Shown: positions 3,915 to 24,858 of the stretch, one piece after another
Numbering within the stretch: position 1 is the first letter of the stretch
Layout of the letters: each line of letters begins with the position of its first letter
Assembly (NCBI GenBank): GCA_024275575.1
Contig: JAJRYV010000124.1
Coordinates: 1 to 37,363, forward strand
Length of the DNA: 37,363 bases
Reading direction: 5' to 3'
Origin: a bacterium
GTDB taxonomy: Bacteria; Zhuqueibacterota; Zhuqueibacteria; Zhuqueibacterales; Geothermadaptataceae
Notes under the pieces: generated by a model
The model's database searches: none
The model's input: only the letters and a program-made list of their open reading frames with translations
What the model was told of the DNA's origin: nothing
Position numbers and translations under genes: made by a program

Positions 3915-5131
3915 CGTGTTTTTTCCTCCTGCAAGGCAGTTAAAAGTTCTTCAAAAAGCATCTGCAATTCCTGTTGTTCTTCCGCTTCGACATTTCGGCT
4001 TTCACAGCGCCGCGCAAATACATCCCCCACCTGCAATTCATCCAAATCTGCCAGTTCTTCCTGCTCGGCAAGGGAGAAAGAATTAGCCGCATATTGTGCG
4101 CTTACTTTCAGAATTTCGAGTTTTTTATCACCGAGAAAACTGCGAATTTGTACGTCAGCGTCGGGAGTGAATTTAGCTAATTGTAATTGCACCTCGGCCC
4201 AGCTTGTCAGCTGATCATTTTTTTCGCTGAAAAGCTCGATCGCGATTTGCACCTCAGCGATGTCGCCTTTAAAACGTAGCAACCTGCGTGTCGTTGGCAC
4301 TTCGATCGTTTTGATCTGGTGCAATTTTTCCGCTTTGAATTCAACCAGTACAATTTGTTTGGCATCCTCGATTTCGCTAAAACTGAGGGGGATTGGCGAG
4401 CCGCTGTAGCGGATTTTCTCCAGACCGCCGACCCGCTGCGGCCGGTGCAGGTGCCCCAGCGCAACGTAGTCGAAACATTCGGGAAAAGCACTGGCGCTGA
4501 CTTGTCCGAGATTGCCGATGTGAATATCTTTCTCCGAATCGGCGATGCGGCTGCCGGCGGCATAAAGATGCCCGGTGGCGATAACCGGCGCCGCTGCCGG
4601 ACGTGCTTGCTGCGCCAGCGCCGCGACAGCATCATAATGTGCCCGGATTCCCGCTTTGATGCGTTTTTCACGTTCTGCATGCAATTCACCGGCGATCGCC
4701 GCCCGGATATCGCGGTCGCGCAAAAACGGCACGGCGCAAACTATCGCAAGCGGCATCCCGCTTTTGTCTTGCACAGTGATGATTTCATCATGCAAGTTTT
4801 CTGCTGCGCCGCCGAGCACGGTGATATTGAAACTTTGCAGCAAAGTCCGTGGTGCGTTGAGCGTGGAAACGGAATCGTGATTTCCTCCGATGATGATCGT
4901 GTGACGGCATCGACTGCGTGTGAGGTCTTTGAGAAAATTATAATACTGACGCAGCGCCGAGTTGGGCGGGTTGGCATTATCGAAAATATCACCGGCAACG
5001 ATGAGCAGATCGACTTTTTCAGTGTGGATGATTTGCAGCAGGAATTCGAGAAACAGGCGGTGTTCTTCTTCTCTGTCTTTATCGCAGAGATGCTGGCCGA
5101 GATGCCAATCAGCGGTATGCAAGAGGCGCAT
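3911..5131 (-). CDS. sbcD: Exonuclease subunit SbcD (Mre11-like nuclease)
   Basis: This is the metallophosphoesterase subunit of SbcCD, the manganese-dependent nuclease partner of SbcC. The 406 residues begin MRLLHTADWHLGQ, with metal-ligand motifs D8/H10 in DWHLG, D48 in GDIFD, N84-H85-D86 in GNHD, and a later GHLH. Length matches the family (~400). The ATG is preceded by AAAGGGGA about seven bases upstream. The gene is first of a two-gene unit whose stop overlaps the sbcC start. A strong hairpin upstream separates it from the fkpA-like gene, so it probably has its own promoter. No oddity was seen. Confidence 0.95.
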   Translation of the reverse strand: MRLLHTADWHLGQHLCDKDREEEHRLFLEFLLQIIHTEKVDLLIVAGDIFDNANPPNSALRQYYNFLKDLTRSRCRHTIIIGGNHDSVSTLNAPRTLLQSFNITVLGGAAENLHDEIITVQDKSGMPLAIVCAVPFLRDRDIRAAIAGELHAEREKRIKAGIRAHYDAVAALAQQARPAAAPVIATGHLYAAGSRIADSEKDIHIGNLGQVSASAFPECFDYVALGHLHRPQRVGGLEKIRYSGSPIPLSFSEIEDAKQIVLVEFKAEKLHQIKTIEVPTTRRLLRFKGDIAEVQIAIELFSEKNDQLTSWAEVQLQLAKFTPDADVQIRSFLGDKKLEILKVSAQYAANSFSLAEQEELADLDELQVGDVFARRCESRNVEAEEQQELQMLFEELLTALQEEKTR

Positions 5132-5171
5132 GGAAATATTCCCCTTTGGTTTGTTGAACCGGAATACTAAG

Positions 5172-5204
5172 AAACCTTCCAGGTTTTAAAAACCCGGAAG
5201 GTTT
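5172..5204 (-). terminator. Terminator-like hairpin after fkpA-like gene
   Basis: A long imperfect stem pairs AAACCTTCC-GGTTTT with AAAACCCGGAAGGTTT around a 1-3 nt loop. It sits about 20 bases past the isomerase stop and upstream of sbcD, both on the minus strand. It is not followed by a T-run on that strand, so the role is inferred from position and stem strength. Confidence 0.5.
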
Positions 5205-5225
5205 AAAGCGTGAAGGTTTGGCGAC

Positions 5226-5957
5226 TTATTTGACTTCCAGCAATTCCACTTCAAAAATCAGGGCGCAGTTGGGACCAATATCATTACCGGCACCGCGCGC
5301 CCCATAGGCGAGTTCGGCAGGAATAAACAACTTATATTTGCTGCCGGTGTTCATCAATTGCAGCGCTTCGGTCCAGCCGGCGATGACACCGGTGACCGGG
5401 AATTCGATCGGGTTGCCGCGTTTGTACGAGCTGTCAAATTCCTGGCCATTGAGCAGGGTGCCGCGGTAATGCACTTTCACTTTGTTGGCACGTGTGGGTT
5501 TCGGACCGTCGCCTTCTTCAAGAACCATGTATTGCAGCCCGCTTTCGGTGGTGATTACACCTTCTTTTTTCTTGTTTTCTTCCAAAAAATCGCGGCCTTC
5601 TTTCAGGTTTGTGGCGGCGACAGAGTCTTTACCTGCCGCCTGCTCCGCCTGCTTTTTCTGATAGGCTTCATTGGCTTTTGTGCGGAATTCCCGCAAAACT
5701 TCAGCGGTTTCGTTTTTGTCCAGCAGCACCTGGCGGTCGGCATAAACGGTATCCAGAATGCCCTGAATGAGCACGTCGATATCGACATCTAACGGCATGC
5801 GGTTTTTAAATTGTTCGCCGACGTCGAGGCCGAGAGCGTAGCTGTATTTCTGCTCAAAAGTATCCAGCCTGGAAACTTTTTTGCTGCCGTCAGACTGGCA
5901 GGATTGCAGCGCGAATCCCATGAAAAGCAGGAAAAATGAGGCGATCAGGAATTTCAT
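5226..5957 (-). CDS. fkpA: FKBP-type peptidyl-prolyl isomerase, lipoprotein
   Basis: This is a predicted periplasmic or outer-membrane-anchored prolyl isomerase and chaperone of the FkpA/Mip type. Residues 1-20 form a lipoprotein signal ending in the lipobox LQSC (C20). An alpha-helical FKBP_N dimerisation region rich in Gln, Lys and Glu follows (~35-125). The C-terminal FKBP domain (~135-243) contains the typical stretches KVHYRGTLLNGQEFDSSY, VIAGWTEAL and IPAELAYGARGAG. The 243-residue length is normal for the family. A GGAGAA ribosome site precedes the ATG. It is a single gene with a hairpin on its downstream side. The symbol is by resemblance to E. coli FkpA, not proven orthology. Confidence 0.9.
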   Translation of the reverse strand: MKFLIASFFLLFMGFALQSCQSDGSKKVSRLDTFEQKYSYALGLDVGEQFKNRMPLDVDIDVLIQGILDTVYADRQVLLDKNETAEVLREFRTKANEAYQKKQAEQAAGKDSVAATNLKEGRDFLEENKKKEGVITTESGLQYMVLEEGDGPKPTRANKVKVHYRGTLLNGQEFDSSYKRGNPIEFPVTGVIAGWTEALQLMNTGSKYKLFIPAELAYGARGAGNDIGPNCALIFEVELLEVK

Positions 5958-16183: not shown

Positions 16184-16695
16184 GCACTTTTCCTAGGTTG
16201 AAAACCGATAATTGGGGCCGATGTTGGATTTAAATAAAACAGGCGAATAGAGGCATTAATTCACGGTGTTAAGCTAACTCGCATGATAACAATTTCAGTT
16301 TTATCTGAAATCAGGCCTTTTGAAGAATCAAAACACTGAGACTCTGTTTAAGAAACGAGTTGAAGATTACGCTCGTTACAAGGCTCTGCCTTGTAATGCC
16401 CTGTGCGCAGGCTCTACCTGCAGTATGCATGTTTGACTGGTGGCTGGAGCCACGCACTCGGCATTCCCAGTCGGAGACTGGGAACGAGTTATCGCCGGCA
16501 GTTTAATTTGGGAGCCATAAATCAACTTGTTCCTTTAACAGAGCCAACACTGAAGAACGATAAATGTTAGCCACAGATCAAACATGGATTCTTTTCTTCA
16601 CCTTGAAAACCAGTGTTTGAGCCATGAAAATCAGTGGCTGAATTTCTGTTCGACTTTTCCACGATGAGTTAAAAGGTCAAAATAAATAGTACTAT
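16184..16695. other. Intergenic gap carrying the long miniature element
   Basis: This 512-base gap lies between larC and yjbQ. Outside the mobile element (16340-16545) it contains no gene-like frame. The right part (16555-16690) has wording such as 'ccacagatcaaacatgg' that looks like generic repeat debris. The insertion may have separated yjbQ-pfkB from a formerly closer larC-ecfA-pil transcription unit. Confidence 0.4.
16340..16545. mobile_element. Miniature inverted-repeat element, long copy (206 bp)
   Basis: The ends are GACTCTGTTTAAGAAACG and (reverse complement of the other end) GGCTCTGTTAAAGGAACA, about 14 of 18 matching. Perfect 8-bp direct repeats AACACTGA flank it at 16332-16339 and 16546-16553. 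Inside are four hairpins: TTACAAGG/CCTTGTAA (16376-16396), GCAGG/CCTGC (16407-16421), GTGGCT/AGCCAC (16440-16453) and TTCCCAGTC/GACTGGGAA (16464-16484). There is no coding capacity. A second copy in inverted orientation lies at 24534-24674. Ends and an 8-bp duplication of this kind are seen in the ISL3 and IS6 families, but the helper transposase is not in the window. Confidence 0.85.
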
Positions 16696-17115
16696 TTATT
16701 CGCCCATTATTTGCACGACGATTTTGCGGTTGCGCGCGCGGTTGTCAAAATCGATGAGCACGATTTGCTGCCAGGTACCCAAATGCAAATGTCTGCCGGA
16801 AAAAGGGATGACGAGACTTGCACCGAGCAGCGCTGCGCGTACGTGGGAAAAACCGTTGCCGTCACCCCAGGTTGCGTCGTGGTGGTATTGCATATCTGCT
16901 GGTGCCAGTTTTTCAAAAAGTTCGGGCAGGTCTTTTTTTAATCCCGGCTCGAATTCGATGGTGGTGATGCCGGCGGTGGAGCCGGGAATGAATACGGTCG
17001 CAGTACCATCATCGATGCTGGATTTTGCAATCTCGGTTTCGACATCTCTGGTGATGTCATGAATATCACAGACGCCGCGGGTTTGCCGGCTGATTGAACC
17101 GGTAAAAACTTTCAT
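16696..17115 (-). CDS. yjbQ: YjbQ family protein (UPF0047)
   Basis: The 139-residue product belongs to the small secondary thiamine-phosphate synthase-like YjbQ family, whose physiological role is still debated. Signature pieces are VFIPGSTAGITTIEFEPGL, the metal-site stretch YHHDATWGDGNGFSHVRAALLG and a C-terminal H-L-H-L-G-T-W-Q-Q-I-V-L-I-D-F-D segment. Length is exactly that of the family. The ATG overlaps the stop of the PfkB kinase gene by 4 bases, so the two are translated together. Confidence 0.92.
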   Translation of the reverse strand: MKVFTGSISRQTRGVCDIHDITRDVETEIAKSSIDDGTATVFIPGSTAGITTIEFEPGLKKDLPELFEKLAPADMQYHHDATWGDGNGFSHVRAALLGASLVIPFSGRHLHLGTWQQIVLIDFDNRARNRKIVVQIMGE

Positions 17116-18023
17116 TTTTTAAAATCCATCAAATTGTAAAAAGCCTGAAAACGTTCGTCGACAAGCTGCTGGTTCAGTTCAACGATACGGTTGACGGAGT
17201 AACCTTCCACTGTATAGCTGGCGAGGGCGCTGCCATAAACCATGGCCTGCCGCATAACAGCGTTGTCAAGGCGTTTTTGTGTCGTGAGATAGCCCATAAA
17301 ACCGCCGGCAAAACTGTCTCCGGCGCCGGTGGGGTCGTCGACCAGTTCCAGGGGAAATGCCGGTGTAAAAAAAATGCTGTCATCGGAAAATAACATTGCA
17401 CCGTGTTCACCTTTTTTGATGATTACATGTTGCGGCCCCATTTTATGAATTTCAGCCGCTGCTTTAACGAGATTGTATTCACCGGATAAATCACGGGCTT
17501 CCTCATCGTTGACAAAGATTCCCTGCACTTTTTGTAAAACACGCATTAAATTTGGGCGGTATTTTTCACTATTAATCCAGTAATTCATCGTATCCATGCC
17601 GATGAATACAGGGTTTTTCGCCTGCTCGATGACGTGCAGTTGCAGCGCCGGATCGATATTGCCGAGGAAGAAAAACGGCGCTTCGCGGTAGGCCGGAGGC
17701 AGATCGGCGGTAAAATCGAGCAGTACATTTAAATGTGTGAAGAGCGTATCGCGGACGTTCAAATCCTGATGGTATTTTGCCCCCCAATGGAAGGTCTCGC
17801 CCTCGAGTTGTTGCAGACCTTCGAGGTCTACGCCTTTGCTTTGCAGTAAATCAAGATAACCGGGCAGAAAATCCCTGCCGGTGGCGGCGACCATGCCGAC
17901 TTTACAGAAATAGCTTGCCGCAAGGCAGAGATAAACAGCGGTTCCGCCAAGTTGTTTTTCGGCTTTTCCTGTCGGTGTTTCAACGGAGTCATATCCTACG
18001 GTTCCAATGGCCACTAAATCCAT
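17112..18023 (-). CDS. PfkB/ribokinase-family carbohydrate or nucleoside kinase
   Basis: This is a cytoplasmic ATP-dependent kinase of the ribokinase fold, ~303 residues. It has an N-terminal glycine motif (GGTAVYLCLAASYF), the VNDEEARDLSG region before the nucleotide site, and the catalytic DPTGAGDSFAGGFMGYL, where the last Asp of GAGD is the base. I start it at ATG 18023 because AGAGG lies 6 bases upstream; ATG 18029 is two codons longer with no room for a ribosome site. The substrate cannot be told from sequence; sugars, inosine/guanosine or adenosine are all known in close relatives. It is followed by yjbQ with a 4-base overlap. Confidence 0.9.
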   Translation of the reverse strand: MDLVAIGTVGYDSVETPTGKAEKQLGGTAVYLCLAASYFCKVGMVAATGRDFLPGYLDLLQSKGVDLEGLQQLEGETFHWGAKYHQDLNVRDTLFTHLNVLLDFTADLPPAYREAPFFFLGNIDPALQLHVIEQAKNPVFIGMDTMNYWINSEKYRPNLMRVLQKVQGIFVNDEEARDLSGEYNLVKAAAEIHKMGPQHVIIKKGEHGAMLFSDDSIFFTPAFPLELVDDPTGAGDSFAGGFMGYLTTQKRLDNAVMRQAMVYGSALASYTVEGYSVNRIVELNQQLVDERFQAFYNLMDFKK

Positions 18024-18131
18024 GTTCATCCTCTGTTTTAGGCTGTTTTAACGGTGTGGTAAGAATCAATTGAGTTAATTTTAACGAAGGGTTATCGTGT
18101 ATAGTGTGCTCGATGAGATGGCTGTTGATAT

Positions 18132-18233
18132 TTATTCGCCGGGGACGGTTTCAAAACATGTCACGGGCATTTGCATAATTTCATTCGATTGTTCGGCCAG
18201 GCAGGCTAACACGGCCTGAATAATTGCTTCCAT
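18132..18233 (-). CDS. Small hypothetical protein (33 aa)
   Basis: This minus-strand frame reads MEAIIQAVLACLAEQSNEIM followed by QMPVTCFETVPGE and a TAA. AAAAAGGAC lies just before the ATG, a fair ribosome site with short spacing. It sits in the 290-base gap between the two-CW protein gene and the PfkB kinase gene, same strand. I recognise no family. The N-terminal half could form an amphipathic helix, and there are two cysteines. A frame of this length can arise by chance, so expression evidence would be needed. Confidence 0.3.
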   Translation of the reverse strand: MEAIIQAVLACLAEQSNEIMQMPVTCFETVPGE

Positions 18234-18311
18234 TGTCCTTTTTCATATTGATTTTTATTCAGTTACGATATTTACGAAACTGATTTGTCCGTTTAGTCGC
18301 AGAGCTTATCG

Positions 18312-18602
18312 CTATCCTCTATTCCCCCGGGGGCCCAGGCCGAGAATAAAAGCACGATCTTCCTGCCGTTCCACTTCCTGGAAAAAATCGCAATGCAGGC
18401 ATCTTTGAAATTTATGTCCTTTTTCTGCCTTGCATTTCGTTCCTTCGATTATCCAGCAAATCCGCCCTGCAGCTACGCCGTTGTTGAGCCCGTCGTATTC
18501 TTCAGCAGTGAACACCGGGCAAGAATCGGATTGATGGCCGGCCGGGTTGATATTTCCACAGATACACTGGAAATATTCCCAACAATTTAATTTTCTCTCC
18601 AT
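18312..18602 (-). CDS. Two-CW domain Cys-rich protein
   Basis: The 96-residue soluble protein starts MERKLNCWEYFQC and contains two 'CW' units: NCWEYFQC..CPVF and GRICWIIEGTKC..RCLHCDFF. This is the two-CW domain often found at the end of chemotaxis receptors and sensor proteins or as a stand-alone protein. It is thought to bind metal or an Fe-S cluster through its Cys residues, but the role is not established. About eight Cys are conserved in pattern. The last ~15 residues (AFILGLGPRGNRG) are a tail of no known function. It stands alone between argS and the PfkB gene. Confidence 0.75.
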   Translation of the reverse strand: MERKLNCWEYFQCICGNINPAGHQSDSCPVFTAEEYDGLNNGVAAGRICWIIEGTKCKAEKGHKFQRCLHCDFFQEVERQEDRAFILGLGPRGNRG

Positions 18603-18714
18603 ATACCTGCTGTTAATTCAATTGGATTAGTCAAACCTGCATTTTAAAATTGGCATAAAGTTACTGTATTAGATTCGACGTATCGGGTTCAATTCTGAAA
18701 TGCTTTGCCGTTTT

Positions 18715-19932
18715 TTACATCCTTTCCGGGGTTGAAATGCGCAGAATATTCAGGCCGTTGACCAGCACTGTGCGCGTGGCTTCGAGCAGCATCATCCTCG
18801 CCTGACTCAACGGCATATCATCCGTCACCACACGGTTGTTGTGATAAAAGCTGTGGAAAGCGGCAGCGACTTCCATCAGATAGGCCGGCAAATGGTGCAC
18901 TTCCATCACACGGGCGCAGGCGCTGACGATTTCCGGGAATTCATGCAATTTTCGTATGAGGGCGATTTCTTCAGGTGCGACAAGCAGGGAAAGATCAGCA
19001 TCGTTGGTTAGCTCCAGTCCGTTTTCTTTCGCGTATTGAATGACGTTAACGATGCGTGCATGGGCATATTGTACATAATATACCGGATTTTCATCGCTGC
19101 GTTTTTTTGCCAGATCGATATCAAAATCGAGAGGCGAATCGAGTTTGCGCATAACGAAGAAAAAGCGCGCCGCATCGATGCCGACTTCCTGTACTACCTC
19201 ATCCATTTCGATGATATTGCCCGCACGTTTGCTCATTTTGACTACCTGGCCGTCGCGCAGCATGTTGATCTGTTGAATGATGCGGACGTTAAAATTTTCT
19301 TTGGCATGACCCAGCGCCTGCAAAGCTGCTGAAACCCGATCGATATATCCGTGGTGATCCGGCCCCCAGAGATCATACAGCGTCGCAAAACCGCGCTCAA
19401 ATTTATTTTGATGATAAGCGATATCGACCATAAAATACGTTGGTTCGCCTTCTTTTGTCAGCAAAACCCGGTCTTTTGCGTCGCCGAATTGCGATGACTT
19501 GAACCACAGCGCGCCATCTTTTTCATAGGTGAGATTTTTTGCTTTCAGTGTTTCGACGATTGCAAAATGGGCATTTTTTTCGCGCAAACTGCTTTCAAAA
19601 AACCAGGTTTGATAATCGACACGGTAGTTCGTCAACGCCTTTTGATGCAGAGTGATCATTTTTTTGAGCGCTAATGCGGCGAGGGCGGTTTGCCGCTGAT
19701 CATTCTGCATCCCGACAAATTTGTCGCTGTATTCGTTTTTTATTTCCTCTGCAAGGCTGACGACATATTCGCCCTGATAGCCATCTTCAGGCACGGATTC
19801 ATTTTTGCCGAACAAATTCATATAGCGGGCGGCTACCGAGGCGCCGAGCAGTCGTACCTGTTTGCCGGCATCATTGACATAATACTCCCGCTCAGCCGAA
19901 AACCCGACTTTGTTAAGCAATTCCACCAGCAC
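18715..19932 (-). CDS. argS: Arginyl-tRNA synthetase, catalytic core and C-terminal part (frameshifted gene)
   Basis: This is the downstream part of argS. It contains EREYYVNDAGKQV, VLLTKEGEPTYFMVDIAYH, WGPDHHGYIDRV, the KMSKRAGNIIEMDEVV loop and the anticodon-binding alpha-helical domain ending in NGLNILRISTPERM. The frame is in fact open further upstream, to 20043, and there reads GRGKRINIEFVSANPTGP followed by LNVVSARAAATGD. The M at 19932 is therefore an internal codon, not the true start. The upstream part is in another frame (see 19968-20357). Where class I synthetases of this type have H-x-G-H this one has N-V-V-S, while KMSK is intact. Confidence 0.85.
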   Translation of the reverse strand: MLVELLNKVGFSAEREYYVNDAGKQVRLLGASVAARYMNLFGKNESVPEDGYQGEYVVSLAEEIKNEYSDKFVGMQNDQRQTALAALALKKMITLHQKALTNYRVDYQTWFFESSLREKNAHFAIVETLKAKNLTYEKDGALWFKSSQFGDAKDRVLLTKEGEPTYFMVDIAYHQNKFERGFATLYDLWGPDHHGYIDRVSAALQALGHAKENFNVRIIQQINMLRDGQVVKMSKRAGNIIEMDEVVQEVGIDAARFFFVMRKLDSPLDFDIDLAKKRSDENPVYYVQYAHARIVNVIQYAKENGLELTNDADLSLLVAPEEIALIRKLHEFPEIVSACARVMEVHHLPAYLMEVAAAFHSFYHNNRVVTDDMPLSQARMMLLEATRTVLVNGLNILRISTPERM

Positions 19933-19967
19933 ATCACCGGTGGCAGCGGCGCGGGCGGAAACGACAT

Positions 19968-20357
19968 TCAGCGGCCCGGTGGGGTTGGCACTGACAAATT
20001 CGATATTGATTCTTTTGCCCCGGCCCCAGTCGTCATCGCCATGTTTTCTCCGGCAGTGATAATTTCTGCGATCGTATTTTGCCAGTAAGATTTTTTCAGA
20101 ATGAAATTGATAAAACCCGGGCCGTCCACTGTGATTTTTTTGACTAATTCTTTATCATCGGTGAAATTATCGACCAGCGTTTCTGCGATGTTGCGCGGCG
20201 CCTGCCGCAGGGTTTTCGCCAGCCCGAGGGCCACGGTCGTGGCGAAATCACCCCATGTTTCCTGGCGTGGTTTCTCGATGATCACCCGTGTTTCGGTATC
20301 GTATGCCTTCTTTAAAGCCGCCTCGATTTGTCCGGCAAGGTAGAGATCAATCTTCAT
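19968..20357 (-). CDS. argS: Arginyl-tRNA synthetase, N-terminal part (frameshifted gene)
   Basis: From ATG 20357 (AGGAA upstream) this frame encodes the N-terminal Add1 domain of ArgS: MKIDLYLAGQIEAALKKAYD, ETWGDFATTVALGLAKTL and VDGPGFINFILKKSYWQ. After ITAGEN it loses the ArgS pattern and runs into unrelated residues. Restoring one A in the A4 run at 20044-20047 (written as T's on the plus strand) rejoins it to GEKHGDDDWGRGKRINIEF in the downstream frame. The intact gene would be 18715-20357, about 547 codons, normal for ArgS. The start overlaps the rsfS stop by 11 bases. Confidence 0.85.
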   Translation of the reverse strand: MKIDLYLAGQIEAALKKAYDTETRVIIEKPRQETWGDFATTVALGLAKTLRQAPRNIAETLVDNFTDDKELVKKITVDGPGFINFILKKSYWQNTIAEIITAGENMAMTTGAGAKESISNLSVPTPPGR

Positions 20358-20706
20358 AATTTTCCTCGGTGATTTCTTCGCGTTGTACATCGCCCCAAAT
20401 GCGTTCGAGACTATAGTATTCGCGAACCTGGGGCTGGAAAATGTGAACGACAAAATCCACATAATCCATTAAAATCCAGCGACCGCTGCTGTGTCCTTCG
20501 ACATGGTTGGCGCGTACTGTCTGTTTTTTCAGTTCAACAGCGATGTGCCCCTCGATGGCTTTGCAATGCACATCAGTACTGCCGCTGCAGATAACGAAGT
20601 AATCGGTGACGTTGCTGACGCCGCGCAAGTCGTAAATTTCTATATTTTCAGCTTTTTTTTCCAGCGCCAGAACAGCCGCTTTTTTTGCTGCTATTTTCGT
20701 GTCCAA
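20347..20706 (-). CDS. rsfS: Ribosomal silencing factor RsfS
   Basis: RsfS binds protein L14 of the large ribosomal subunit and blocks subunit joining under starvation. The 119 residues contain the family core IEIYDLRGVSNVTDYFVICS, GSTDVHCKAI, NHVEGHSSGRWILMDYVDF and YYSLERIWGD. The start is TTG 20706, as there is no ATG in frame before the conserved core; AAGG lies about 11 bases upstream. It is followed by argS with an 11-base overlap and preceded closely (11 bases) by the glycosyltransferase gene, so the three are one transcription unit. Confidence 0.93.
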   Translation of the reverse strand: MDTKIAAKKAAVLALEKKAENIEIYDLRGVSNVTDYFVICSGSTDVHCKAIEGHIAVELKKQTVRANHVEGHSSGRWILMDYVDFVVHIFQPQVREYYSLERIWGDVQREEITEENYED

Positions 20707-20717
20707 AGTGTTTTGCC

Positions 20718-21734
20718 TTATTTTAAAGATTCGCTAACCGCTTGCGGTTTGGTCGATTTCATACAGAGAAAATGACCTTGCGGGCAGTTCGGTCGGCCGA
20801 CATGGCTGCAGGGCCGGCAGGACAGTTGCAAGTTTTCAAAAACCCGGCTCTGCGGCAAAAAAGGGTAAAATCCGAGCTGCCGCACCGTTGAACCGAAAAT
20901 GGCTGTCACCGGGGTCTTCACCGCTTCGGCCATGTGCATCAAACCGGTATCATTGGTGATCAGGCGGGTCGCCGTTTTCAGCGCTGCCGCACTCTGCCGC
21001 AATGAAAGTTTCCCGGTCAGATCAATTATTTCCGGCGCCGCTTTTTTGATTGTTTCGCCGAGCCGACGGTCTTCCGGGCCACCAAGTACGAGACAGGTTT
21101 TTCCGTTTTTGATGATTTCCGCTGCGATCTTCTGGTAATTTTCCAGCGGCCATCTTTTGCTGAAATAGCCGGCGCCTGGCGCCAATGCAATTATCGGGTT
21201 TCGGGTTTCTTGCCCGAGGCCGCTTTTATGCTGGAAACCGCTGTGATCCTCCTGTGCGAGAAAAAGCTCAGTCCCGGCACCATCGTCGATGATTTGCAGT
21301 GGTGCGGCAACATCGATGTAACGTTGCAAAACCGGCTGCACACTGCAATAAATATCACGTCCGAATTTTACCAGGTTAAAGCGCGGCCAGCCATATTTGC
21401 GTAACCGTCCTGTAAACTTCGTATTTTGCCGAACTGATAAGATAAGGGAACGAAAATTTTTGTGCAAGTCAATTATTACATTATAATTTTGCTCACGTAA
21501 AAAATGTCGTATTTGGAAAAGGTTTTTCAGCGTGCCTGTTTCAGGAAATTCGATAAGCCGGTCGATTTGTGGATCGTGGCGCAAAAGGCCGGCAAAACGG
21601 GATTTTGTCAGATAGTCGATGTGCGCTTCGGGAAATCTTTTTCTCAACAGGCGGATAACCGGCGTGGTCAAAATGATATCACCGATAGAACTCAAGCGGA
21701 TGATCAGTATTTTTTTCAATTCCCCATTGGGCAT
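20718..21734 (-). CDS. Glycosyltransferase family 9 (heptosyltransferase-like)
   Basis: This is a GT-B transferase of the ADP-heptose:LPS heptosyltransferase family, acting at the inner face of the cytoplasmic membrane on lipopolysaccharide core. The 338 residues begin KKILIIRLSSIGDIILTTPV, as in WaaC/WaaF. Later segments are IIALAPGAGYFSKRWPLENY, CLVLGGPEDRRLGE and TRLITNDTGLMHMAEAVKTPVTAIFGST. The C-terminus has four Cys (SCRPCSHVGRPNCPQGHFLC), a pattern seen in some GT9 proteins. GGAG precedes the ATG by seven bases. The exact acceptor sugar cannot be read from sequence. Confidence 0.9.
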   Translation of the reverse strand: MPNGELKKILIIRLSSIGDIILTTPVIRLLRKRFPEAHIDYLTKSRFAGLLRHDPQIDRLIEFPETGTLKNLFQIRHFLREQNYNVIIDLHKNFRSLILSVRQNTKFTGRLRKYGWPRFNLVKFGRDIYCSVQPVLQRYIDVAAPLQIIDDGAGTELFLAQEDHSGFQHKSGLGQETRNPIIALAPGAGYFSKRWPLENYQKIAAEIIKNGKTCLVLGGPEDRRLGETIKKAAPEIIDLTGKLSLRQSAAALKTATRLITNDTGLMHMAEAVKTPVTAIFGSTVRQLGFYPFLPQSRVFENLQLSCRPCSHVGRPNCPQGHFLCMKSTKPQAVSESLK

Positions 21735-21796
21735 TTAATCTCCAAATTGTCAAAATAAATCCGGGGAGGCCGTCGGTTCCCTGCGGCCATAAAAAA

Positions 21797-21824
21797 GCAG
21801 AATCAACCGGCGGGTCAATTCTGC
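21797..21824 (-). terminator. Rho-independent terminator after the UDP-glucuronate decarboxylase gene
   Basis: A 7-bp stem (GCAGAAT / ATTCTGC) has a second short stem inside it and is followed on the minus strand by TTTTTT. A T-run on the other strand as well means it could work in both directions. It sits 64 bases past the decarboxylase stop and before the glycosyltransferase ATG. Confidence 0.7.
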
Positions 21825-21887
21825 AATTTTTAAATTGGGAATTTTTTTTGATTAATGCAAGCTTCGTGTGCAAGCCGGGGAGCGCTA

Positions 21888-22823
21888 TTATATTTGCGTT
21901 CTAAAATAGTCGATCGTTCGTTTTAATCCTTCACTTAAATCGACTTTCGGCTCCCATCCCAGCAGCTTCTGTGCTTTTTCGATGTTGGGTTGACGAATTT
22001 TGGGGTCATCCTCAGGCAGGTCTTCAAAACTGAGCGTGCTCTTGCTGCCGGTCAATTCGATGATGCATTCAGCCAACATTTTGATGGTCATCTCGTTTGG
22101 GTTGCCAATGTTCACCGGTTCATTTAAATCTGAGACCAGCAAGCGGTAGATACCCTCGATCAGGTCGTCAACATAACAAAAACTGCGTGTTTGTGAACCA
22201 TCGCCAAAGATTGTAATGGGTTCGTTTTTCAGGGCTTGCGGCACGAAGGCGGGGATGGCACGGCCGTCTTTCAGCCGCATGCGCGGGCCGTATGTATTGA
22301 AAATGCGGACGATCTTGGCGTCGACATGGTGCTGCTCCGAGCGGTGGTAGGCCATGGTTATCGCTTCGGCAAAGCGTTTGGCTTCGTCATAGACTCCGCG
22401 CGGCCCCACCGGATTGACATTGCCCCAGTAATCTTCAGTCTGCGGATGAATCAGCGGGTCGCCATAGACTTCCGAAGTGCTGGCGAGCAGCACCGTCGCC
22501 TTTTTTTCCAGCGCCAGACCGAGCACTTTGTGGGTGCCCAGGGCCCCGACTTTCAAGGTCTGAATCGGTAATTCAAGATAGTCCATCGGGCTGGCCGGCG
22601 AAGCGAAATGCAGAATGTAGTCGATCTCTCCGGCGAGAAAAATGTATTCGGTAACATCTTGTTTTATAAAGTGAAACTTTTCGCCTTGCAAATGTGCAAT
22701 ATTGGCGGTATTGCCGGTGGACAGATTATCCATGGCGATTACATGGTGGCCTTTTTTCAGTAAATATTCACACAGGTGCGAACCGAGAAATCCAGCACCT
22801 CCTGTTACTAATGTTCGCGGCAT
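21888..22823 (-). CDS. uxs: UDP-glucuronate decarboxylase (UDP-xylose synthase)
   Basis: This is an NAD-dependent short-chain (extended SDR) enzyme that turns UDP-glucuronate into UDP-xylose for surface glycans. From ATG 22823 it has 311 residues: the NAD motif [19 protein letters not shown], the family's [36 protein letters not shown], the catalytic pair in [11 protein letters not shown] (Tyr and Lys) and NTYGPRM. The frame is open 48 codons further upstream, but AAAGGG sits just before this ATG and the extra residues match nothing. A terminator follows. It fits with the neighbouring glycosyltransferase in envelope polysaccharide synthesis. Confidence 0.92.
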
Positions 22824-23169
22824 CCTTTTACCCTTTCCTGGAAGATGTCCTGTCACCTCGCTGCAAAGAATTTCTTTGGATAGAAACGAGGATAGTTGTG
22901 AAAAAAATTGCAAAAATTCCGGGTCCGATCGTGGTGAGATAATCTTGTTTTGTCGGGAAAAGTGCATCGGTCAAATCAGATCGAACTCAGGTATTTATAC
23001 ACCATACATGGCCGTGGTTGCGGAATATTCACTTGCGTTAATCTCCAGCGGTTTGAAGCGGCTTTTCCGTTTTGAATGCCGCTGTGATTCTCTCTCTAAA
23101 AAGTCGGAATCCCCAATGAAATTTTTATTAGATTGCACTCTCGTATTATTCAATTGTGCTGAAAAAATA
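22824..23169. other. Intergenic gap, nothing recognised
   Basis: This stretch of about 345 bases lies between the polyprenyl synthase stop and the decarboxylase ATG and should hold the promoter of the latter. I found no convincing hairpin, repeat or gene. An open frame continuing upstream of the decarboxylase covers part of it but shows no family pattern. Confidence 0.4.
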
Positions 23170-24144
23170 TCAATGCTCCCGGCTGGTGATAAAATCGACC
23201 AGCTTGATCAGCACTGATTTGTAATCAGAATCAGGGTAGCGGTCGAGCAGAGTTGTTGCCTTTTCGGTTAATTGCCGTGCCTTTTGCGTAGCGTAAACGA
23301 TGCCGTCATGGGCTTTGATAAAAGCGATGATGTGATGAATATCCTTTTTCTGAGCGCCTTTTTTCATTATTTTTATGATTTTATGGCTTTCTTTTTTATC
23401 GGCGTTTTTCAGGGCGTGCAGCAATGGTAAAGTAATTTTATTTTCCCGCAAATCGTTACCGATGGGTTTGCCGATAGTTTTTTCTGTACCCAACAAATCG
23501 AGCAGGTCATCGCGAATCTGGAAAGCCAACCCCACATCTTCGCCAAAACGCGCCATCATCTCGATTTCCTCATCGCCGGCATTGGCGGAAATAACGCCCA
23601 GCTGACAGGCTGCAGAGATGAGCGAGGCCGTTTTATCACCGATCAGGCGAAAATAGACACTTTCTTCCATTTTATAATCCTTGCTGCGTTCCATCTGCAA
23701 CAACTCACCCTGGCTCATGCGCTCCGCTGTGTGTGAGATGACGTCAAATACTTTAAAATCATGCATTTTCAGCATCGATAACAGCGATTTTGAAAAGAGG
23801 TAATCACCGGTTAAAACCGAGATTTTGTTCTTCCACACAGCGTTGATGGAGGGAAATCCCCGGCGCTGATAGCTGTCGTCAACCACATCGTCGTGCACCA
23901 GCGTGGCCGTATGCAACAATTCGATGATAGCAGCGGCATGCAAACGCCGTTTATCCGGTTTGTGTCCGTTCAGCCGGCTTGCGAGCAAAACGAGAATTGG
24001 CCGCAGCCGTTTGCCACGGTGAGCGACAAGATAAGATATGACTTTATCAACCAGGAAAATATCACTTTTAAGATGGGTTTTAAATTCCTGCTCAAAAGCA
24101 CGAATATCGTCTTTTATCGGGGCGATAATTTCTTTTAATCGCAC
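23170..24144 (-). CDS. ispB: Polyprenyl diphosphate synthase (octaprenyl/heptaprenyl type)
   Basis: This is a trans-isoprenyl diphosphate synthase making the side chain of a respiratory quinone. The 324 residues show RGKRLRPILVLLASRLNG, the first Asp-rich motif LVHDDVVDD, the GDYLFSKSL region, KTASLISAACQLG and the second Asp-rich motif FQIRDDLLDLLG followed by GKPIGNDLRENKITLPLLHAL. This is the IspB/HepT pattern rather than short-chain GGPP synthase. The start is GTG with AGAGGA 5 bases upstream. Chain length, and so the symbol, is inferred from overall resemblance only. Confidence 0.88.
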   Translation of the reverse strand: MRLKEIIAPIKDDIRAFEQEFKTHLKSDIFLVDKVISYLVAHRGKRLRPILVLLASRLNGHKPDKRRLHAAAIIELLHTATLVHDDVVDDSYQRRGFPSINAVWKNKISVLTGDYLFSKSLLSMLKMHDFKVFDVISHTAERMSQGELLQMERSKDYKMEESVYFRLIGDKTASLISAACQLGVISANAGDEEIEMMARFGEDVGLAFQIRDDLLDLLGTEKTIGKPIGNDLRENKITLPLLHALKNADKKESHKIIKIMKKGAQKKDIHHIIAFIKAHDGIVYATQKARQLTEKATTLLDRYPDSDYKSVLIKLVDFITSREH

Positions 24145-24533
24145 GAAATCCTCTGGATTTTCAATTTAAAATAAAACTGTCTGCAAGGGTGTGGATGCAA
24201 CTGCTGGCCGTACTATTTTCTCCAGTTCCGGCAGGGGCATTCGGCGAAATTGCAATCGAGCACAAAAACAGGTTTTTTCTCAGTCTGTAAAATAAAACCT
24301 GCAAATATACAGATAAATTATTTTTTTGTCAACCAATGTTCGGTCGGCAATAATAACCGCGTGTATCGGCGAAATCTGTTCAATCCTTCCAACCCGTGTT
24401 CAGGCTTTTTAAAAGCAGGACGCGGATTGAGCGGATCTGACGCATAGACACGGATTTTTATAAGTAAAACATGGCTTTTTTTTGAAATTTGTCATTTTCC
24501 TGCCAGGTTTCTATAGTTGAAGCTGAAAATAAA

Positions 24534-24674
24534 GGCTCTGTTAAAGGAACAAGTTGATTTATGGCTCCCAAATTAAACTGCCGAGTGCGTGGCTCCAGCC
24601 ACCAGTCAAACATGCATACTGCAGGCAGAGCCTTGTAACGAGCGTAATCTTCAACTCGTTTCTTAAACAGAGCC
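24534..24674. mobile_element. Miniature inverted-repeat element, short copy (141 bp), inverted relative to 16340-16545
   Basis: It begins GGCTCTGTTAAAGGAACAAG and ends CGTTTCTTAAACAGAGCC, forming terminal inverted repeats. It is flanked by perfect 8-bp duplications AAAATAAA (24526-24533 and 24675-24682). Read against the reverse complement of 16340-16545, it is almost base-for-base identical except for two missing blocks of 37 and 28 bases, each a hairpin unit. The GTGGCT/AGCCAC hairpin (24589-24602) is kept. There is no coding capacity. Confidence 0.85.
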
Positions 24675-24858
24675 AAAATAAAATGAACCGTGGTATGATT
24701 TTTTCTAAAACTTGCGGGATAAAACGACAATCCACATTTTTTATGTTTTTAAAAGATGGAATTATCTATTTTCAGGCAGATGAATTTGAGATTTTCTTTA
24801 TGGATCATGATTTTCACCCAAATGATTAATCCAGAAATTTGAATGACTGCTCGATTTT

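Follow-up and report, generated by a model that had tools for sequence, protein, structure and literature searches.

The DNA analysed here (the window) is a stretch of 37,363 nucleotides, positions 1 to 37,363 of contig JAJRYV010000124.1 in assembly GCA_024275575.1 (genome G000), which contains two copies of a short element, W1 (16340–16545, minus strand, 206 bp) and W2 (24534–24674, plus strand, 141 bp). Together with a third insertion on contig C62 of the same genome, these copies represent a miniature inverted-repeat transposable element (MITE), which has most likely been moved in trans by a DDE transposase belonging to the IS1595 family. The ends, the copies, the 8-bp target duplications with their A+T bias and the absence of coding capacity are direct observations, whereas the parent family and the movement in trans are deduced from them; IS1595 is the best-supported parent family and is not proven.

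The initial annotation described two copies in opposite orientation, each with its own exact 8-bp target duplication, and this description is confirmed. W1 is flanked by AACACTGA at 16332–16339 and 16546–16553, and W2 by AAAATAAA at 24526–24533 and 24675–24682 (both pairs read on the plus strand and both exact). End A of W1 is at 16545 and its end B at 16340; in W2, end A is at 24534 and end B at 24674. The two ends of the window type, GGCTCTGTTAAAGGAACAAGTTGATTTATG (A) and GGCTCTGTTTAAGAAACGAGTTGAAGATTA (B), are each about 25–30 bp long and form terminal inverted repeats in W1, W2 and the C62 copy, though imperfect ones. The tips were expected to be shared, and GGCTCTGTTWAA is indeed exact at three of the four, but the left tip of W1, GACTCTGTTTAA, carries one mismatch. 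Searched for on its own with up to two mismatches, the 12-mer tip gives 8 matches, which is not clearly above chance (shuffle mean 4.5; 13 of 100 shuffles reach 8); the case for an element is therefore made by the pairing of the ends, the duplications and the shared body rather than by the tip alone. The bodies of W1 and W2, which had been called near-identical, have a single substitution over their 141 aligned bases but differ in addition by two gaps of 37 and 28 bp that account for the 65-bp difference in length. No open reading frame (ORF) of at least 100 amino acids overlaps W1 or W2, which agrees with the earlier view of the element as non-coding. The inverted ends, the fixed 8-bp duplication, the short non-coding body and the dispersed copies are the characters of a MITE, and from a short non-coding element with inverted ends we infer, as the initial annotation did, that the transposase must come in trans.

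When W1 was used as a query, 11 matches were found in G000, W1 and W2 among them. The third complete insertion, at C62:44–248, has the target duplication AAGGGATT. The terminus of contig C128 carries the flank of the C62 copy followed by the same element, which is identical over 138 aligned bases, lacks the 37-bp block and is cut off by the end of the contig. From its sequence, the C62/C128 pair looks like a polymorphic site with one allele lacking the hairpin block, an assembly error being the alternative. The other seven matches (on C71, C112, C62 twice, C93, C131 and C83) comprise the interior array only, whole or in part. Recent movement, as proposed earlier, is plausible for W1 and W2 with their one substitution in 141 bases, but the C62 copy differs at 7 of 205 positions from W1 and at 4 of 140 from W2, and the likeness of W1 and W2, which lie 8 kb apart, may also be maintained by recombination.

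Beyond G000, a match to W2 (E ≤ 0.001) was found in one further genome among the seven of the family, the Calditrichaeota isolate CLD2 (G002), which belongs to the same genus, and the exact extended end pattern is confined to these two among the 82 genomes of the phylum. G002 contains 27 paired copies of 162–523 bp, in which the ends are related and the interiors mostly differ; the one-ended pieces L068, L074, L084 and L098 are excluded from this set. Their end A, GGCTCTGTTTAAATAACAAGTTGATTTATA, resembles end A of the window, and their end B, CGCTCTGTTTAAGAAACGGTATGAATTATC, has its outer part in common with the window end B. The possibility that no further copies exist anywhere is thus refuted by three sites in G000 and the 27 paired copies in G002.

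The 8-bp duplication is a property of the whole set. Of the 30 paired copies (3 in G000 and 27 in G002), 18 have an exact 8-bp duplication and 26 have one with at most one mismatch, while random re-pairing of the flanks gives means of 0.7 and 1.7 and maxima of 7 and 10, respectively, in 10,000 trials. Exact duplications of 5, 6, 7, 9 or 10 bp occur in none of the 30 copies. The duplicated 8-mers are 89% A+T, compared with 51% for the window. These fractions are inflated because most G002 copies were first listed through a filter that required a duplication with at most one mismatch; the four copies added without the filter (L070, L076, L094 and L097) have two mismatches each.

The interior of the element could be taken for something other than a transposon, namely a cluster of extragenic palindromes of the repetitive extragenic palindromic (REP) or bacterial interspersed mosaic element (BIME) kind, flanked by short repeats by chance. 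The hairpin-array stretch of W1 (16365–16500, unstranded), which is closed by CTCGTT/AACGAG, has a folding z-score of -5.04 with no equally stable sequence in 200 shuffles, and it recurs without element ends at seven other places in G000, most of them partial. Within 300 bp of these array-only copies no element end was found at up to two mismatches, save at L007, where two degenerate 12-mers lie nearby and do not convincingly bracket the array. However, 30 insertions show the ends together with 8-bp duplications, G002 has unrelated interiors between related ends, and no Y1 (RAYT-type) transposase is present in G000 (PF01797, 0 hits). A REP/BIME-like origin is contradicted for the whole element and is extremely improbable, but it may still describe where the interior array came from. 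The array has no plasmid match at E 0.01, one of its 25-mers has no exact match in viral contigs, two Rfam hits are below the gathering score and outside the elements, and promoter and terminator scans are near background.

The MITE reading places two recognition ends of about 25–30 bp around a non-coding, hairpin-rich interior. An IS1595-family DDE transposase would bind these ends and make insertions at AT-rich sites through cuts staggered by 8 bp, which would leave the 8-bp duplications; its source would be a full-length element, absent from or unassembled in G000, that acts in trans. The window ends were compared with the IS6 consensus and with 11 IS1595 elements. The first of the latter came from viral contigs, among which a strict end pattern matched no stretch and a relaxed pattern matched 20, only one of them (L214) being paired with at most one mismatch in the 8-mer. 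L214 carries at 4034–5644 an intact element of 1611 bp with GGCTCTGTT...GTTGA ends (in full, GGCTCTGTTATAATTAAATGTTGA and GGCTCTGTTAAAGTACATTGTTGA) and an exact TTAAATTA duplication, and its 342-amino acid protein contains an IS1595 DDE domain (5.7e-18) and a zinc-ribbon domain (7e-8). The element also has a passenger gene for a zinc-ribbon protein of 90 amino acids.

Relatives of the L214 transposase are found in 191 plasmid records, and 14 of the 60 listed, mostly from environmental bacteria, were taken, and the DNA around each transposase was searched for inverted pairs of any sequence with an exact duplication of 8 or 9 bp. In 10 of the 14, paired ends starting with GGC or CGC were found, and the exact duplication is always 8 bp. 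The duplicated 8-mers of the 11 IS1595 elements (L214 and the ten from plasmids) are 86% A+T. IS1595 members usually produce 8-bp duplications, according to PMC8101967, and PMC7835479 describes insertion of ISEc69 at AT-rich 8-bp sites. One plasmid element, from Pontibacillus, has the end GGCTCTGTTAAAGTTTGTTGTTGA, the first 13 bases of which are those of the window end A. It had been hit in a plasmid search with the end queries (30–134 nt), and a later protein similarity search showed that the match is an IS1595 end; no transposase is annotated at the three other matches inspected. When a matrix was built from the 22 ends of the 11 IS1595 elements, the four window ends ranked 1, 3, 4 and 9 among 74,678 positions.

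Several points weigh against an IS1595 parent. Because the MITE ends themselves led to L214, its resemblance to them is partly built in; if L214 is left out, the ranks of the window ends become 1, 9, 10 and 14, and if the Pontibacillus element is left out as well, they become 7, 46, 47 and 54. The window ends score 8.3–13.7, compared with 7.1–28.5 for left-out IS1595 ends. For end B of the G002 copies the scores are -10.7 to 1.5, where the window median is -28.1 and the top 0.1% begins at 1.8. Four of the 14 plasmid relatives are without an end pair of the kind described, and GG tips and 8-bp duplications are known from other families too. The full-length insertion sequence (IS) with the ends of the element, which the initial annotation proposed to look for, was found in neither G000 nor G002, and the IS1595 copies resident in G000 have other ends, CCGGTTATTTAGTTAGCTC.

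These resident copies or fragments are three in number (C2, L017 and L103; C7, L240; C121, L018 and L104) and lie at or near contig ends; they were rejected as drivers of the MITE because their ends differ. Searches of G000 and G002 with the exact 12-mer end gave no autonomous element, nor was there one among the matches listed when one mismatch was allowed, two of them for G000. PF12762 has no match in G002, and a transposase search gave no IS1595 element with MITE ends. Since the lineage yielded no element that combines these ends with an IS1595 transposase, we infer IS1595 parentage and not membership. Multicopy IS often break such assemblies, so the partner could be missing from the assembly. 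Other candidates for a full-length element were discarded: the single-ended G002 pieces L068 and L074 have end B only and no transposase recognised by eye among their ORFs, and the pieces L069, L067 and L073 have no proper end. Among 39 end-matching contig stretches, 19 are from CLD2, and of the 20 from other genomes only L160 had an exact 8-bp pair; L164 was considered as the start of a transposase gene behind a tip, but its ORF does not resemble one.

The failure to find an autonomous partner in G000 and G002, the departure of the G002 end B from the IS1595 matrix, and the occurrence of GGnnnTG tips in several families (PMC6807381) would also fit another DDE family, such as ISL3, an IS1-like or an undescribed one, in which GG-ended repeats and 8-bp duplications arose by convergence. 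We consider this unlikely, as the fit of end A and of both window ends to IS1595 elements stays well above background even when the closest relatives are removed.

The initial annotation had tentatively pointed to ISL3 and IS6. Derivation from an IS6-family element, either the short IS26-like kind or the longer one of clostridia, has in its favour the 8-bp duplication, the GG tips with G at position 7 that IS6 members share, and the rarely complementary outermost bases of the longer type (both from PMC6807381), which recall the CGC/GGC tips of the G002 copies. The link is not supported by the ends themselves: they match the IS6 consensus (GGTTCTGTTGCAAA-type, as given in PMC6807381) at 9–10 of 14 positions, where unrelated sites of the window reach 11, and the IS6 transposase domain PF13610 has no match in the seven genomes of the family. 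In three Clostridium genomes that carry similar MITEs, PF13610 has 13 matches, seven of them in C. manihotivorum, and no pair resembling GGCTCTGTT with an exact 8-mer was found around any of the 13. The one clear long IS6-like element encountered has GATAGTGTAAAG ends and an exact 8-bp TATTTATT duplication. It is the seventh C. manihotivorum match (L166, 1113–2878; 1766 bp); the other six are a 1310-bp element with TATA(G/A)TGG ends. The latter (L169, 1335–2646, and L171, L173, L175, L177 and L178) is 1.3 kb long, has about 99% identity among its copies and scores weakly against PF13610. An IS6 origin is accordingly judged improbable, and an IS1595-type transposase is retained as the most likely mover.

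Under the conserved ends, the interior of the element varies. The 37-bp block that is absent from W2 lies between TGCCG repeats and contains the CTCGTTCCCAGTC...GACTGGGAA hairpin, and the 28-bp one is bordered by near-copies of AGGCAGAGCC. The same 37-bp block is missing in two comparisons, W2 with W1 and C128 with C62, the latter at one site. After insertion, the interior would lose whole hairpins between such short direct repeats, and the position of the breakpoints at the repeats suggests replication slippage as the route. W1, W2 and the C62 copy with its C128 allele form a natural series, the element staying the same apart from the loss of individual hairpins.

Interiors of 25 copies were grouped by blastn (the 3 of G000 and 22 of the 27 in G002, where five of the seven copies of 307 bp were set aside), which gave four groups: the window type (3 copies), a joined group of 20, L066 and L080. 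In our reading, the group of 20 probably consists of several interior types linked by chimeras and nested insertions. L072 contains a nested 300-bp insertion at positions 36–335 of the oriented element with the imperfect duplication TATAGCCTG/TATACCCTG, and L071 a nested 161-bp insertion at positions 79–239 with TTAAAGATAG/TTAATGATAG; these imperfect duplications, of 9 and 10 bp, are the nested insertions' own. L079 is a chimera of the 307-bp type and the right-hand portion of the 182-bp type. Nine interiors were folded, and all have z-scores between -2.9 and -9.0 (100 shuffles). From the at least four unrelated interior groups, the nested insertions in L072 and L071, the chimera L079 and the end-free occurrence of the window array, we tentatively suggest that the ends might serve as a reusable chassis, whose interior has repeatedly been replaced by host palindromic repeats in this genus. 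In this scheme the MITE would first receive insertions of other small elements; the chassis would next acquire a new interior by recombination between like ends, and this interior would then be spread by the MITE. If true, this would be a route for spreading hairpin arrays that lack a transposase of their own.

Both window copies are intergenic. W1 is 150 bp past a UPF0047 gene and 156 bp upstream of the nickel-insertion protein ORF. W2 lies upstream of two ORFs, at 389 bp from one for a polyprenyl synthetase and at 232 bp from a divergent one that has a secretion tail. The two copies are mutually inverted and 8 kb apart, with 16546–24533 of the window between them, and recombination between them could invert the intervening genes.

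The element is real and ordinary in kind, a bacterial MITE most likely moved by an IS1595 transposase. With it a MITE family is on record for the Calditrichota, a little-studied group, and the transposase family indicated is not the one first guessed. What is of interest is that its interiors are rich in hairpins, that one of them also occurs as a free-standing repeat of the host, and that they are lost or exchanged while the ends stay conserved; the CLD2 copies make interior exchange in a MITE testable. No description of this family is among the literature matches listed, in which subscription journals are mostly uncovered, and absence from print is not claimed.

Bacterial MITEs with size variants, as described in the review PMC10969869, are likewise short and intergenic, with inverted and direct repeats and variation in size; IS1595 is mentioned 0 times in the main text of that review. 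Ends of this kind are widespread, since matching MITE families exist in Clostridium. The pattern GGCTCTGTTAAAGTANNRTRTTGA (up to three mismatches) matches 159 times in C. manihotivorum, 142 times in Clostridium sp. C8-1-8 and 5 times in C. hydrogenum, with no match to the reversed pattern. Among 30 of these loci that were read (L182–L211), four have exact 8-bp duplications (three of 132 bp and one of 423 bp) and 12 have at most one mismatch. The MITEs of C. manihotivorum and C8-1-8 share with the window element the GGCTCTGTTAAAGTA...GTTGA ends and the 8-bp duplications, but differ in their interiors and in the other end, GGCTATGTTTAATAATATTGTTGA. The IS1595 elements L214, Pontibacillus L243 and ISAma5 of Alteromonas (L244) resemble the MITE in their GGCTMTGTT tips, in a TGTTG/AGTTG with the same spacing, near position 19–23, and in their AT-rich 8-bp duplications. 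In contrast to the MITE, which encodes nothing, IS1595 elements encode a transposase, and end B in the G002 copies deviates from their pattern.

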